DNA of 64,000 bases from positions 1,964,501-2,028,500 of the forward strand of contig JBBCGG010000001.1 of assembly GCA_037200525.1 (NCBI GenBank). Direction: 5' to 3'. The stretch comes from Methylocella sp. GTDB taxonomy: Bacteria > Pseudomonadota > Alphaproteobacteria > Rhizobiales > Beijerinckiaceae. Below are positions 43,249 to 50,205 of the stretch, piece by piece. The number at the start of each line of letters is the position of its first letter. Within the stretch, counting starts at the first letter, position 1. Under the pieces are notes generated by a model. The model made no database searches and was not told the origin of the DNA. It saw only the letters and a list, made by a program, of their open reading frames with translations. A program made the position numbers and the translations under genes.

Positions 43249-44154
43249 CTATCGCTTGTCGAAAGCTTCGACTTCGGCATTGATCCGCGCGGCCAAATTG
43301 CGCAGTTCCGCCTCGGGGAGCGCGCCGGCGAGGGCATATTTGGCGTTGTTTTGCCGCCAAACGATCGCAGCGGAGCTGGCGGGGGAGCTGGACGAAGCGC
43401 GCCCGGCCGCGTGGAAGCCGGGTGCGCCACTCCCTTCATCGCGCTCGGCGCAGAGGCCGACCGGGGAATCATCGTTCTTGGCGTAGAAAAAACAGAACAT
43501 GCCGCCGGCGGGACCGGGCGCGACGCGGACGCCGACCAGCGTCAGGCCGGCCGCTGAAAGATTTGGCACGACCAGCGCGGCCTGACTTGGCTGGCGGCTT
43601 AGCGGCGCGATCCCCGCCGCATTCGCAGGCTTTTGCGGCGCGAATGCTAGAAGAGCCGATTGCGTGCGCTGGACGAAAATATCGTCGGCGGCAGGGGCAG
43701 CCGTGTCCAGAGCGCCAGCGGTCGGCAGGTGGGAGCGATCGAAAAAAATCCATGCGCCGAGAGTCGCGGCGATCATTCCGCCGGCGAAAGCGCCGATGAG
43801 CCAGCGCGCCTGCCGACGATCGCGCCAGAATTTAACGACAGCGGAGGCCCAAATCTTGGTTCGGGCAGCATCGTTTTGACTCTGTTCCTCGCCGCCCGAC
43901 AAAAGCCGGCTCGCCAAGATGTTTTTCGCCGCGGGCGGAGGGAGCGAGGCGAAGGACAGGGCGGGTTCGCCTTCGACCCGCGCGAAAGCGGCGCGGATGA
44001 TTTCGTTTTGGCGCCGCCAACTCTCGACCCGCGCGGCGTCAACTGGCGAGGAGGCGAGAAAGTCGGCGATGGCCGCGCGGCGCTCTCCCTCGATTTCGCC
44101 ATCGACGAAGCCGTGCAGCTCTTCATCGCTAACGGGGGGCACGGTGCCGCTCAC
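43249..44154 (-). CDS. Anti-sigma factor, membrane-anchored
   Basis: 301 residues. The N-terminal 'SDEELHGFVDGEIEGERRAAIADFLAS' resembles the zinc-less anti-sigma domain that holds an ECF sigma. One membrane helix lies at about 116-137 ('RWLIGAFAGGMIAATLGAWIFF'), and a ~150-residue extracytoplasmic part follows. It lies 13 bases after the sigma gene on the same strand, the usual pairing. It probably holds the sigma inactive at the membrane until an envelope signal arrives. The signal is unknown. Confidence 0.78.
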   Translation of the reverse strand: MSGTVPPVSDEELHGFVDGEIEGERRAAIADFLASSPVDAARVESWRRQNEIIRAAFARVEGEPALSFASLPPPAAKNILASRLLSGGEEQSQNDAARTKIWASAVVKFWRDRRQARWLIGAFAGGMIAATLGAWIFFDRSHLPTAGALDTAAPAADDIFVQRTQSALLAFAPQKPANAAGIAPLSRQPSQAALVVPNLSAAGLTLVGVRVAPGPAGGMFCFFYAKNDDSPVGLCAERDEGSGAPGFHAAGRASSSSPASSAAIVWRQNNAKYALAGALPEAELRNLAARINAEVEAFDKR

Positions 44155-44167
44155 GCCGACGGACTTT

Positions 44168-44728
44168 CTATTTGACCAGCCGCAAATGGGGGGGACGCGC
44201 TTTGGCTTTACGCCCTGGGGCTGATTCTTGCAGAGCCTGACTCATGCGCTCCCGCGCGCGGGACAGGCGCGCGATCAGGATAGGACGCGAAACTTTAAGG
44301 ATTCGTGCCGCCTGCGCATAAGTAAATCCTTCCAAAGCGATCAGCAAAAAGGCCTCTTTCTCCTCAAGCTTAAGTCCGCAGAGCGCGCAGGAAAGCTTAT
44401 CGCGGGGCGAAAGAAGGTTCGGGATTTTCTCGGGGGAGTGCAAGGTCCGCGCGCGCAGGCTCCCATCCGCCAAAGCGCTCGAGCCCCGGCTCGGCGCGCG
44501 GAAACTTGGTCCCCGCAGCAAATCGCGATGCATCTCGATCAGCAGAGAATAAACATCCGCGTCGGGGTCTGAAGTCGTGCCGACAGGCTCAAGCTCCGGC
44601 GCGCGGAGTAGGGCCGCGCGGACGAGATCGTCAGCGGCGTCGCTGGCGCCGGGGTGGGAAGCGACAAGCGCGCGGGCGTAACGGCGAAGCCGCGATCCAC
44701 GCAAATCCAAATCCTCTCGCAAACTCAC
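44168..44728 (-). CDS. ECF-type RNA polymerase sigma factor
   Basis: 186 residues from a GTG start with GGAG seven bases ahead. A poorly conserved sigma-2-like region (about 1-75) is followed by a clear sigma-4 helix-turn-helix (about 105-165: 'LEEKEAFLLIALEGFTYAQAARILKVSRPILIARLSRARERM'-type pattern, quoted here in part). It is likely released by the downstream anti-sigma. It is divergent from fabI across 241 bases. I could not recognise an autoregulated promoter by eye. The weak sigma-2 part makes the promoter class uncertain. Confidence 0.75.
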   Translation of the reverse strand: MSLREDLDLRGSRLRRYARALVASHPGASDAADDLVRAALLRAPELEPVGTTSDPDADVYSLLIEMHRDLLRGPSFRAPSRGSSALADGSLRARTLHSPEKIPNLLSPRDKLSCALCGLKLEEKEAFLLIALEGFTYAQAARILKVSRPILIARLSRARERMSQALQESAPGRKAKARPPHLRLVK

Positions 44729-44969: not shown

Positions 44970-45818
44970 ATGACGCAACCGGAAACCATGACGCCTCGCC
45001 TGAAGACTTCTGGAATCCTCGCTGGTAAACGCGGCCTTGTCATGGGGCTCGCGAATAATCGGTCAATCGCCTGGGGCATCGCCAAAGCGGCCCATGAAGC
45101 GGGCGCCGAACTTGCCTTTACTTTTCAGGGCGAATCGCTGGAAAAGAGAGTGCGACCCCTGGCGCTGGAGGTCGACGGCAAGGTTCTTGGCCATTGCGAC
45201 GTGACCGAATCCGCAAGTCTCGACGCGGTGTTCGCCGAGGTGGAGCGCATTTGGGGCTCCCTCGATTTCGTCGTCCATTGCGTGGCTTTCTCCGACAAGG
45301 ATCAATTGACGGGCCGCTATGTCGATACCACGGCGGAAAATTTCAGCAATTCGCTGTTGATTTCCTGTTATTCGTTCACGGCGGTGGCGCAACGCGCCGA
45401 AAAACTGATGCGCAAGGGCGGCTCGATGCTAACCCTGACCTATTACGGCGCAGAAAAATGGATGCCGCATTATAATGTGATGGGCGTCGCCAAGGCCGCG
45501 CTTGAGGCCAGCGTGCGCTACCTCGCCGCCGATCTCGGCGCGCAGAATATCAGGATCAATGCGATTTCGGCGGGTCCGATCAAGACGCTCGCGGCTTCGG
45601 GGATCGGCGATTTCCGCTACATCCTGAAATGGAACGAATATAACGCGCCGCTGCGCCGCTCGGTGACAATCCAGGAAGTCGGCGAAAGCGCCGTCTTTCT
45701 ATTGTCGCCAATGGCGCGCGGCATCACTGGCGAAATCCTCCATGTCGATGCCGGCTATCATGTCGTCGGCATGAAAAATCCGGCGGCGCCCGACATAGCG
45801 GCGCTTGGGAAAGACTAG
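44970..45818 (+). CDS. fabI: Enoyl-[acyl-carrier-protein] reductase (NADH)
   Basis: 282 residues, short-chain dehydrogenase fold of the FabI type. 'RGLVMGLANNRSIAWGIA' binds NADH. The catalytic pattern is Tyr-(six)-Lys in 'HYNVMGVAKAALE'. 'NAISAGPIKTLAASGI' and 'GEILHVDAGYH' complete the signature. It performs the last step of each fatty-acid elongation cycle and is the target of triclosan-like inhibitors in this family. It appears monocistronic. Confidence 0.95.
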   Translation: MTQPETMTPRLKTSGILAGKRGLVMGLANNRSIAWGIAKAAHEAGAELAFTFQGESLEKRVRPLALEVDGKVLGHCDVTESASLDAVFAEVERIWGSLDFVVHCVAFSDKDQLTGRYVDTTAENFSNSLLISCYSFTAVAQRAEKLMRKGGSMLTLTYYGAEKWMPHYNVMGVAKAALEASVRYLAADLGAQNIRINAISAGPIKTLAASGIGDFRYILKWNEYNAPLRRSVTIQEVGESAVFLLSPMARGITGEILHVDAGYHVVGMKNPAAPDIAALGKD

Positions 45819-46125: not shown

Positions 46126-49100
46126 ATGTCGCGTGATTTGGCGACCGCAGCGGCTTTTCAGACGGAAGGCCCGAGTTCCGATTCGGGGCGCGGTCCAAGC
46201 GCCATTTTGCGCGGTCTTCGCCAGCCGGAGCTGATTCGCGACGAATTGCTCTGCGAAATTTTTGCCGCCGCCGTCGCAGCGAATCCAGACGCCGTCGCGA
46301 TGGTGACGCGCGAGGGCAGCTTTACCTACGCAGATGTCGACGCCAAGGCGGAGGCGATTGCGCGGGGTCTCATTCGCAAAGGTCTGCGCCCCGGCGATGT
46401 CGCGGGCCTCTGGATGGCGCGGGGCCATGACCTCCTGATCGCCCAGATCGCCATCGCCAAAACGGGAGCCGCCTGGCTGCCTTTCGATGGCGATGCCCCG
46501 GTTGAGCGCATCGCAGTGTGTCTCAGCGACGCCGAAGCCAAAGGCATCGTGGTTTCGGATGATTTCGCCCGAAAGCTCGAAGGCGCCGCCCCCTGTTCGA
46601 TCTGGGCTGCTCACGATCTCATCGATGCGTCGGACACAACCAAAATCGACGTCCGCGCGCTCGGCGCGACGCCGCAAAGCGCGGCCTATCTCATCTACAC
46701 CTCGGGCTCGACCGGAACGCCCAAAGGCATCGTAATTTCCGGGCGCAATATTTGCCATTATCTGCGCTCCGCCAATGAAGTGTACGGCCTCTGCGCCAGC
46801 GACGTCGTTTTCCAGGGCGCGTCGGTCGCCTTCGACCTCTCGATGGAGGAAATCTGGCTCCCCTATCTGGTCGGCGCGACGCTTTTCGTCGCGACCGCGG
46901 ATATCTTGGGGGAGGCCGAGAAACTGCCCGAAATCATGGAGGCCAATCGCGTCAGCGTGCTCGACACGGTGCCGACTTTGCTCGCGCTGCTGCCGCGCGA
47001 TGTCGCCACTCTGCGCGTGATCATTCTTGGCGGCGAGGCCTGCCCGCCGGCGATCGCCAACCGCTGGTGCAAGCCCTCGCGCAAGATCTTCAATTCCTAT
47101 GGTCCGACGGAGGCGACAGTCGTCGCGACAGTCGCGGAAGTAACGCCCGGAGCCCCGGTCACCATCGGGCGGCCGATTCCGAATTACTCCTGTTATGTCG
47201 CCGATGATCGGCTCAATCTCGTTGAGTCAGGCGTCGAAGGCGAACTGCTCATCGGCGGTCCCGGCGTCACCGCAGGCTATTTGCGCCGTGAGGAACTGAG
47301 CGCCGAGAAATTTATCGCCAATCCGTTCCTCTCCGCCGGCGTTGCGGGCCAAGCGAGTGACCCGACGCTCTACCGTTCCGGCGACGCGGTGGCGATCGAC
47401 GCTAACGGCGACCTGCTGTTTCGCGGCCGGATCGATGATCAGGTCAAGGTGCGCGGCTTTCGCGTTGAACTCGGCGAGATCGAATCAAAGCTTGGCGATC
47501 TGCCGGGCGTCGCCAACGCCGCCGTCATATTGCGCACGGACGACGGGATCGAGCAGCTCGTCGCCTTCATCGTTCCAACGGCGGGAGCGGCGATCGAGAC
47601 CCGCGCAATGCGCAATGGCCTTCGCGCGCATTTGCCGGCCTATATGCTTCCATCGCGTTTCGAGACGATCGAAAGCTTGCCCAAATTGTCGTCCGGCAAA
47701 GTCGATCGCAAGAGCTTGAAACTCCTCGCTCTCTCCGCCAGCGATCCCGTCGAAGAACAAGAAGACCCCCGCACGCCGACCGAAGCGAGCTTGCTCGCCG
47801 CGGCCAAGGCTGTTTTGCCGCCGCAGCCGATTCCTTTCGACGCGGATTTTTTTACCGATCTTGGCGGACACTCCCTGTTGGCGGCGCGGTTTATCTCGCT
47901 CGTCCGGCAGACGCCGGCGCTGGCGCGCATCACCTTGCAGGATGTCTACGGCGCGCGCTCGCTGCGGGCCATTGGCGAACTCCTTGACCGGAAATGGGCC
48001 CACATGGCGGAGGTCGAGGATCTGTCCTTTACGCCGCCGCCCCTGTTGCGACGCTTCTTTTGCGGGCTTGCCCAGGCGGCGGCCCTGCCGATCATCCTCG
48101 GGCTCGTGACCGCCCAATGGCTCGGCGTTTTCGTCAGCTACATGCTGCTGACCGGCGCGGACGCGAGCATCGGCGAGGAAATCATCTCGCTCATCGGCGT
48201 CTATATGTTCATCAACATCGCGACGGTCGCCATCGTCATCGGCGCGAAATGGCTGATCATCGGACGCACCAAACCTGGCCGCTATCCCTTATGGGGCGTC
48301 TATTATTTTCGCTGGTGGCTGGTTAGGCGCTTCATCGGCTTGGTCCATATCAAATGGTTCCAGGGTTCGCCCTTCATGCGGTTTTATCTCGCCGCGCTGG
48401 GAGCGAAAATCGGCAAAGACGCGATCATCGGCGAGGTCGATGCAGGCGCAATCGATCTGATTTCGATTGGCGCTGGGGCCAGCATTGGTTCGATCGCCAA
48501 TCTGGCCAACGCTCGCGTCGAAGGCAATGAACTCGTCATCGGCTCGATCGACATCGGCGCCGAGGCCTATATCGGCTCCTCTTGCGTCATCGAGGAAGAT
48601 GTCGTCATCGGGCGCGGAGCCGAAATGGGCGACCTTACGGCGATTGGGGCGGGAAGCCGCCTCGGGGCGTGGGAAGTCTGGGACGGCTCGCCGGCGCGCA
48701 AGGTCGGCATGGTCGATCGCGCCGAGCTTGACGCTCCCTCGGTTGCGTCCGGAGCCCGCAAATTCGGCATGGGAATTGTTTATCTGGCGCTGCTTCTGGC
48801 CATACCGCCGCTTGGCCTGCTGCCGATTTTTCCGGCCTTTTGGGTATTCGACAAGATCGACGACGTGATCGGCGTCGCCGATGTCGATCGCACGCTGTAC
48901 ATGGCCTCGATACCGGTCATGGCCTGGCCGACTGCGTTCGTAATGGTTCTCGTCACCGTAGGCTTCATCGCCGTCTGCAGATGGGTGATCTTGCCGCGCG
49001 TGCGCGAGGGGGTCTATTCGGTTCATTCCTGGTTCTATTTGCGCAAATGGGCGGTGACGCTCGCCACCGAGATCACGCTCGAGACGCTGTCATCGCTTTA

Positions 49101-50205
49101 CGCGACCGTTTATATGCGCACCTGGTATCGGCTGATGGGCGCCAAGATCGGCAAGGACGCCGAGATTTCGACGAATCTGTCCGGACGTTACGATCTGGTC
49201 GAGATCGGCGAGAAGAATTTCATCGCCGATGAAGTCGTTCTAGGCGATGAAGAAGTTCGCAACGGCTGGATGACGCTCAAGCGAGTTAAGACGGGCCCGC
49301 GCGTCTTCGTCGGCAATAGCGCCGTCGTTCCGACCGGCGCCGATATCCCCGCCAACGCCCTGATCGGCATCAAGTCAAAGCCGCCGGCGAATCATCTGAT
49401 GCATGAGGGCGACACCTGGTTTGGCTCGCCCCCGATCAAATTGCCGGTGCGGCAGAAATTCGACGCGGGCGGCGCCAATTGGACCTATGAAGCGCCGGCT
49501 TGGAAGAAATTCGCGCGCGCCTGCTTTGAGGCCGTGACGATTTCGATGCCGACCATGCTGTTCATCACCTTCGGCACTTGGGCGGTGGAATGGTTCAGCA
49601 AAAGCGTCCTTGACGGCGAATATTTCGATGTCGCCGTGCTGTTCATATTGTCCTCGGTCATGATCTGCGTCGCCCTGACGGTCGTTGTTATCGTCCTGAA
49701 ATGGCTTACGATGGGGCGTTATGAGCCGATGGTTAAACCGATGTGGTCATGGTGGGCGATGCGCACTGAGGCGGTCGCCGTGATCTACTGGGGCATGGCG
49801 GGGAAGGTCCTGCTCGATCATCTGCGCGGCACGCCCTTTCTTCCCTGGCTGATGCGCCTGTTCGGCACTAGGTTCGGCAAGGGCGTCTATATGGACATGA
49901 CCGACATCACCGAGTTCGACTGCGTGACGGTCGGGGATTTTGCCTCTCTCAACGCGCTTTGCGCTTTGCAGACGCATCTTTATGAGGATCGCGTGATGAA
50001 GGTCGGCAAGGTTTTTGTCGGCAAGGGCGTCACCATCGGCGCGGGTTCGACGGTTCTTTATGATACTGAGGTGTCCGATTACGCCCGGCTTGGGCCGCTA
50101 ACCCTGGTCATGAAGGGCGAACAGATTCCGGCTCATTCGGAATGGGCCGGAGCGCCGGCGGAGCCGAAGGCCGCGTCGGAGCGGATTGTCGAGAAGGCCG
50201 CCTGA
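46126..50205 (+). CDS. Pls/PosA-type amino-acid homopolymer synthetase (NRPS-like)
   Basis: 1359 residues. Adenylation domain at about 45-535 ('YTSGSTGTPKG' 191-201, 'NSYGPTEAT' 323-331, 'YRSGD' 416-420, K525 in 'SSGKVDRK'). Carrier domain at about 550-622 with phosphopantetheine serine S583 ('GGHSLL'). Then three membrane-helix pairs (about 645-708, 880-957, 1135-1192), each followed by a tandem soluble domain with hexapeptide-repeat (left-handed beta-helix) stretches (about 755-850, 1005-1085, 1250-1335). This is the plan of epsilon-poly-lysine synthetase (Pls) and PosA: no ordinary condensation or thioesterase domain. It activates one amino acid and links it repeatedly at the membrane. Binding-pocket residues are D237 L238 E241 D280 I300 G302 S324 V332 V333 K525; the acidic pair suggests a basic amino acid (inference). 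It needs a phosphopantetheinyl transferase; AcpS at 55960 is a candidate. Confidence 0.88.
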   Translation: MSRDLATAAAFQTEGPSSDSGRGPSAILRGLRQPELIRDELLCEIFAAAVAANPDAVAMVTREGSFTYADVDAKAEAIARGLIRKGLRPGDVAGLWMARGHDLLIAQIAIAKTGAAWLPFDGDAPVERIAVCLSDAEAKGIVVSDDFARKLEGAAPCSIWAAHDLIDASDTTKIDVRALGATPQSAAYLIYTSGSTGTPKGIVISGRNICHYLRSANEVYGLCASDVVFQGASVAFDLSMEEIWLPYLVGATLFVATADILGEAEKLPEIMEANRVSVLDTVPTLLALLPRDVATLRVIILGGEACPPAIANRWCKPSRKIFNSYGPTEATVVATVAEVTPGAPVTIGRPIPNYSCYVADDRLNLVESGVEGELLIGGPGVTAGYLRREELSAEKFIANPFLSAGVAGQASDPTLYRSGDAVAIDANGDLLFRGRIDDQVKVRGFRVELGEIESKLGDLPGVANAAVILRTDDGIEQLVAFIVPTAGAAIETRAMRNGLRAHLPAYMLPSRFETIESLPKLSSGKVDRKSLKLLALSASDPVEEQEDPRTPTEASLLAAAKAVLPPQPIPFDADFFTDLGGHSLLAARFISLVRQTPALARITLQDVYGARSLRAIGELLDRKWAHMAEVEDLSFTPPPLLRRFFCGLAQAAALPIILGLVTAQWLGVFVSYMLLTGADASIGEEIISLIGVYMFINIATVAIVIGAKWLIIGRTKPGRYPLWGVYYFRWWLVRRFIGLVHIKWFQGSPFMRFYLAALGAKIGKDAIIGEVDAGAIDLISIGAGASIGSIANLANARVEGNELVIGSIDIGAEAYIGSSCVIEEDVVIGRGAEMGDLTAIGAGSRLGAWEVWDGSPARKVGMVDRAELDAPSVASGARKFGMGIVYLALLLAIPPLGLLPIFPAFWVFDKIDDVIGVADVDRTLYMASIPVMAWPTAFVMVLVTVGFIAVCRWVILPRVREGVYSVHSWFYLRKWAVTLATEITLETLSSLYATVYMRTWYRLMGAKIGKDAEISTNLSGRYDLVEIGEKNFIADEVVLGDEEVRNGWMTLKRVKTGPRVFVGNSAVVPTGADIPANALIGIKSKPPANHLMHEGDTWFGSPPIKLPVRQKFDAGGANWTYEAPAWKKFARACFEAVTISMPTMLFITFGTWAVEWFSKSVLDGEYFDVAVLFILSSVMICVALTVVVIVLKWLTMGRYEPMVKPMWSWWAMRTEAVAVIYWGMAGKVLLDHLRGTPFLPWLMRLFGTRFGKGVYMDMTDITEFDCVTVGDFASLNALCALQTHLYEDRVMKVGKVFVGKGVTIGAGSTVLYDTEVSDYARLGPLTLVMKGEQIPAHSEWAGAPAEPKAASERIVEKAA

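Follow-up and report, generated by a model that had tools for sequence, protein, structure and literature searches.

In the window (the whole 64,000-nucleotide stretch of Methylocella sp. DNA that was analysed), a single open reading frame begins with the ATG at 46126, ends with the stop codon that closes at 50205 and codes for a protein of 1359 aa; the coordinates, strand and reading frame given for it in the earlier note proved correct. The features of the locus are collected in Table 1. Pfam matches were obtained for AMP-binding (residues 46-386), AMP-binding_C (451-525), PP-binding (564-620) and a single hexapeptide stretch (814-847), and NCBIfam TIGR02353, the model of the Pls/PosA terminal domain, matches residues 649-1345 with a score of 618 bits (cut-off 423). 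The adenylation (A) domain, the carrier domain and the TIGR02353 terminal domain are therefore found on one chain, and no condensation or thioesterase family was listed for the 1359-aa protein by Pfam at E up to 0.001. This agrees with the earlier description of an A and a carrier domain without a classical condensation or thioesterase domain, and the TIGR02353 score upholds the proposed membership in the Pls/PosA family with its homopolymer-synthetase plan. The Pfam and TIGR02353 scores, along with the alignment to PosA, rule out chance as the source of the domain matches. Two candidates for a phosphopantetheinyl transferase are present in the genome.

Table 1. Features of the synthetase locus (window positions; for the pocket, residues of the protein).
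Feature	Position	Strand	Basis or remark
fabI, upstream gene retained from the shared order	44970..45818	+	site marker; functional link to the synthetase only putative
Whole gene, 1359 aa	46126..50205	+	Pls/PosA-family single-module synthetase (A - carrier - terminal membrane domain)
Adenylation domain and C-terminal lid, as modelled, residues 26-540	46201..47745	+	Pfam, PosA alignment, model
Pocket residues	D237 L238 E241 D280 I300 G302 S324 V332 V333 K525	+	motif reading
Carrier domain, residues 564-620	47815..47985	+	Pfam match; S583 (in LGGHSL) is the serine expected to carry phosphopantetheine
Terminal domain, as modelled, residues 625-1350	47998..50175	+	TIGR02353, model, row alignment

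The terminal membrane domain was modelled from residues 625-1350 on the basis of 40 sequences (pLDDT 91.3, pTM 0.91). The model predicts six helices in three pairs and three hexapeptide-type domains. The long-helix pairs lie at model residues 16-51/58-87, 252-291/298-331 and 501-538/542-571, with short strands of the beta-helix type after each, and the first helix of the second pair (252-291) is broken near 275. The threefold repeat of two membrane helices and a hexapeptide domain, recognised at the first reading of the sequence, is thus backed by the model and, for five of the six helices, by hydropathy, since five membrane-like stretches of the terminal part rise above the threshold of 1.5 and the sixth stays under it. 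Two short stretches of the A domain likewise exceed this threshold. The best 50 of 450 Foldseek matches of the model (E up to 10) are all partial, with a query TM of at most 0.15, so no solved whole terminal domain is among them; most belong to the left-handed beta-helix acyltransferases or the gamma carbonic anhydrases. The matches of the acyltransferase type include galactoside acetyltransferase, AntD, CysE and LpxD. In the 125 rows of homologues described below, 37 positions within residues 541-1359 are conserved at 95% or more, and all 37 are unchanged in the window protein. H1284, located in the third repeat, is the sole histidine kept in 125/125 rows and may be catalytic.

The A-domain model (pLDDT 92.1) has PosA, the delta-poly-L-ornithine synthetase of Acinetobacter baumannii, as its top fold match (8g95, target TM 0.96, 46% identity). 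The PosA A domain was also the top PDB sequence match of residues 1-437 (391 bits), followed by LgrA with 344 bits summed over two domains; PDB 8G95-8G98 are entries of PosA (PMC10522769, partial text). The structure prediction and alignment proposed earlier as a check thus set the A domain nearest to PosA, in keeping with the family, with Pls (epsilon-poly-L-lysine synthetase of Streptomyces, A domain 7WEW) only at rank 30. PosA and Pls have the same domain plan as the window protein, and the equivalents of Asp235 and Glu239 are shared with PosA. The pocket code read from motifs is DLEDIGSVVK, identical in all ten residues to the code read by eye in the earlier note, and nine of the ten positions are in register with PosA in the HMMER alignment, the tenth lying past the end of the solved PosA chain. 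The pocket acids Asp235 and Glu239 are present in 125/125 rows, window included, and the second acid, Asp278, occurs among these rows only in those with a DLED pocket. In PosA, Glu221 binds the side-chain amine of the substrate, and the D217A and E221A variants have undetectable activity (PMC10522769, partial text); the corresponding amine-binding glutamate of Pls is Glu217.

The window code shares seven of ten letters with Pls-A (DAESIGTVVK; PMC12195549, partial text), seven with the consensus at which arginine domains group, D[AV]ED[IVL]GA[VI][TD]K, seven with DMEDVGSVDK, given for Orn and Lys (both PMC12283262, partial text), and five with PosA (DMEHNGTVSK; PMC10522769). The basic substrate is likely because of this overlap with the Pls-A, arginine, Orn/Lys and PosA codes. 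The pair of Glu239 and Asp278 is also compatible with the published arginine consensus (PMC12283262). The window pocket is neither of the PosA subtype, from which it differs by M to L, H to D, N to I, T to S and S to V, nor of the Pls subtype, from which it differs by Ala236 to Leu, Ser278 to Asp and Thr322 to Ser and whose terminal domain belongs to another clade. The identity of the window terminal domain is 37-41% to the DMEH-pocket (PosA-type) rows and about 24-28% to actinobacterial rows with the Pls pocket. Since Ser313 of PosA, the replacement of which by alanine lowers the efficiency 183-fold (PMC10522769), is a valine here, the specificity has probably shifted relative to PosA. The earlier comparison of the code with a lysine-type domain of bacitracin synthetase is supported as to the basic pocket, the glutamate of which is kept in 125/125 rows, but the nearest characterised enzyme is PosA, which uses ornithine. 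The bacitracin-type lysine domain was therefore dropped as the nearest model, PosA being the best match by both sequence and fold.

Leucine at position 236 is similar in bulk to Met218 of PosA, which it replaces. This methionine has been proposed to limit substrate length (PMC10522769), PosA is the nearest characterised relative in sequence and fold, and the code DMEDVGSVDK is reported for ornithine as well as lysine (PMC12283262); all this would fit an enzyme that makes delta-poly-L-ornithine like its nearest relative, with neutral pocket changes and no new chemistry. However, five of the ten code positions are unlike those of PosA, including position 331, where the hydroxyl important for ornithine is lost (S to V), and we regard this explanation as possible but somewhat doubtful. 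Activation of L-arginine, leading to an arginine polymer or oligomer, is improbable, and it would require a bond of another kind than the simple isopeptide through a side-chain amine. The fit of seven positions to the arginine consensus (PMC12283262) and the modest arginine activity of a Bdellovibrionales homologue (PMC10522769) speak for such a substrate, but the consensus is mismatched at positions 236, 322 and 331, the terminal domain retains every position conserved at 95% or more, and the family products named in the available text of PMC10522769 are built from diamino acids.

The first set of homologues comprised 78 rows, window included, 46 of which carried the pocket DLED[ILV]G[ST]VVK. 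The terminal domain was present in 54 of 80 additional loci, and the addition of 54 sequences gave 132 rows. Seven rows were removed, as broken, partial or misread (L045, L046, L047, L086), masked (L068), cut off (L073) or 99.5% identical to another row (L016, to L018). The DLED pocket is found in 50 of the resulting 125 rows, which contain two identical pairs, both within the DLED group. L018 and L143 (Methylocella tundrae, NZ_CABFMQ020000098.1) are identical over 1212 positions. Thinning at 80% identity left 89 rows for the trees, 27 of them with the DLED pocket; A. baumannii PosA is absent from the tree rows. The DLED group had been chosen by its pocket, and therefore the trees are the real test of the clade. 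The 27 rows are monophyletic in the tree of the terminal domain as well as in that of the A domain, which was calculated without the pocket columns, with an SH-aLRT of 100 in each; no other pocket falls within them in either tree, and the clade joins PosA-type rows at 99 in both; these values come from quick searches, and long branches meet elsewhere in the terminal-domain tree. In the drawn, midpoint-rooted terminal-domain tree, the DLED rows sit within a grade of PosA-type rows. Because the root is a midpoint, the descent of the DLED clade from a PosA-type enzyme is a step that we infer from this position. One row of the grade, L079, has the pocket DVEANGTGSK.

The DLED pocket type is already in print, since it is listed in two publications. 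The string 'D L E D I G T V T/V/I K' was described as a unique signature of sequences from Archaea, Rhizobia, Methylobacterium and others (PMC10522769), and a NAPAA region with DLedLgTVvK was reported in a Bosea isolate and seven other complete Bosea genomes (PMC10508160). The pocket of this Bosea gene is of the window's type, and a row with it (L161, DLEDLGTVVK) lies inside the DLED clade. The suggestion of the earlier note that such a polymer is not described for this group was therefore too strong. Both publications give the code only: neither the available text of PMC10522769 nor PMC10508160 reports a substrate or product for a DLED-type pocket, and these texts contain none of the three points added here, namely the test of the clade, the distribution of the gene across the family and its recurrent chromosomal site. 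PMC10508160 was the sole literature match to the exact pocket strings, and no other literature on the DLED-type pocket was among the matches listed, Methylocella polymers being covered by broad search terms.

The sample of the window's family comprised 149 genomes, of which 99 have a TIGR02353 match above the cut-off; the corresponding figures for the order, class and phylum samples, each of which includes genomes of the same family, are 37/249, 9/289 and 26/398. In the window's genus, the gene is present in five of six genomes, window included. The pocket was read for 58 of the 99 positive family genomes, and it is DLED in 56 and of a DFEA type in two (L009, L022).

Upstream of the synthetase gene, the window contains fabI and genes for a weakly sigma-factor-like protein and for a 301-aa protein that matches no family, while a uracil-DNA glycosylase family protein and an NYN-domain protein are encoded downstream on the other strand. 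The common gene order in relatives is fabI-gpm-[gene]-aroC, where gpm is the label used for a histidine-phosphatase family gene; the window's genus has retained the fabI-gene part and has different genes downstream. The site was studied in 37 regions from the family, each about 20 kb long and containing a DLED gene, which were picked for long contigs and genus spread and include four from the window's genus. In 30 of them, fabI, gpm or aroC lies near the synthetase gene in the same orientation, and in seven none of these does; fabI or gpm upstream is combined with aroC downstream in 17/37 (in L098 with a 6.2-kb gap). The full order also occurs outside the family, in L125. Of 13 gene-lacking genomes examined among the 50 family genomes without a TIGR02353 match above the cut-off, six (L223, L225, L231, L233, L235, L237) have an empty site, with fabI or gpm less than 1 kb from aroC and thus too little space between them for the gene; in the remaining seven aroC is present, but neither fabI nor gpm lies within about 5 kb of it. 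Two of three genomes outside the family (L226, L238) have the order without the synthetase gene.

The recurrent neighbours in relatives are fabI, gpm, aroC, ribBA, dnaJ and genes of the histone-deacetylase family, the sigma-like type, an outer-membrane antigen family and the L,D-transpeptidase family, the last recurring some kilobases from the synthetase gene in some of the regions. The idea that the synthetase gene belongs to a biosynthetic gene cluster was rejected, as no biosynthetic partner was recognised among the window or recurrent neighbours; PosA, too, is described as a single-gene operon. Conservation next to primary-metabolism genes would fit envelope modification, and the beta-helix repeats resemble acyltransferases, enzymes that act on small acceptors. 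The DLED-clade enzyme might then be a transferase of one or a few basic residues to a lipid or cell-wall acceptor instead of a polymerase. This is improbable, however, as no obvious gene of acceptor biosynthesis was recognised among the recurrent neighbours, the L,D-transpeptidase family gene aside, and the enzyme is built like PosA, which forms 7-12-mers in vitro (PMC10522769).

The gene distances between loci track those of fabI (28 loci, Pearson 0.66, Spearman 0.51) and, more weakly by rank, those of aroC (22 loci, Pearson 0.54, Spearman only 0.22). Both Pearson values were reached by 0 of 999 permutations; the distances come from the best-scoring tblastn segment alone, and the loci include several near relatives. 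A recent mobile acquisition in the window's genus is accordingly not favoured, and the gene seems to be an ancient trait passed on largely by vertical descent.

With the family, the domain plan (from the predicted structure), the pocket, the clade and the recurrent site established, the protein is read as a membrane-anchored single-module Pls/PosA-family synthetase that makes a short polycation from one basic amino acid, with a probability of about 0.75. The A domain would activate the amino acid with ATP, the activated residue would be loaded onto the phosphopantetheine of the carrier domain, and the terminal domain, with its six helices and three beta-helices, would join residues repeatedly, probably via their side-chain amines, to give a short polycation. 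The substrate, linkage, polymer and role of the window enzyme are inferred. As the substrate, ornithine would be the foremost, if tentative, candidate, lysine is possible but less likely, and arginine or any other amino acid would each be quite unlikely. The retention of the gene in a large number of family genomes, frequently at a single chromosomal position, suggests a polymer with a standing cell-surface or stress role, and not an occasional antibiotic. A more far-reaching reading, which is unlikely, is that enzymes of the DLED clade produce a polymer not yet described, made for example from arginine or, through a new linkage, from ornithine or lysine. In Beijerinckiaceae, this polymer would be a constitutive part of the envelope, fixed since an early ancestor of the family, and not a secondary metabolite. 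Any substrate other than ornithine or lysine would mean a new polymer. According to PMC9606270 (partial text), the biological significance of such polycations is unclear, and a natural test of their role is offered by a clade that recurs across many genomes of a single family, frequently at the same site, where the gene stands without recognised biosynthetic neighbours and several empty sites serve for comparison.

A single histidine, H1284 of the window synthetase, was retained in all 125 compared proteins carrying the TIGR02353 terminal domain (window protein included, two rows being duplicate copies). In the alignment this residue, part of a Q-x-H motif, occurred in the third repeat alone, which suggests that the pseudo-threefold terminal domain possesses a single active site.

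A DFEA-type pocket, which is Dap/Dab-like, was observed in the TIGR02353 synthetases of two genomes of the window's taxonomic family (L009 on G005:C3 and L022 on G095:C14). In both genomes this synthetase was the sole TIGR02353 match above the cut-off among the matches listed, and its pocket is of this type rather than the DLED type found in the window. Another family genome, G148, was characterized by two full matches above the cut-off, located at G148:C44 and G148:C34.

Relatives of the sigma-like protein, of the adjoining 301-aa protein, or of both (see table) were also found near fabI in several other regions. The 301-aa protein had no match in the family profile search, and the label "anti-sigma" was given to it from its position alone.

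Gene pair upstream of fabI
Feature	Window position	Strand	Basis
Sigma-factor-like protein (weak; under curated cut-offs) and adjoining 301-aa protein	43249-44728	-	Family profile search

Outside the window, the same genome contains a large NRPS region (G000:C1:5075245-5118951), in which 12 of the 17 AMP-binding profile matches of the whole genome fall. DNA identity was 100% among four of them (L005-L008) across 1059 bases, and between another two (L003 and L004) across 1050 bases. Unless they are an assembly artefact, these identical stretches reflect recent module duplication or gene conversion.
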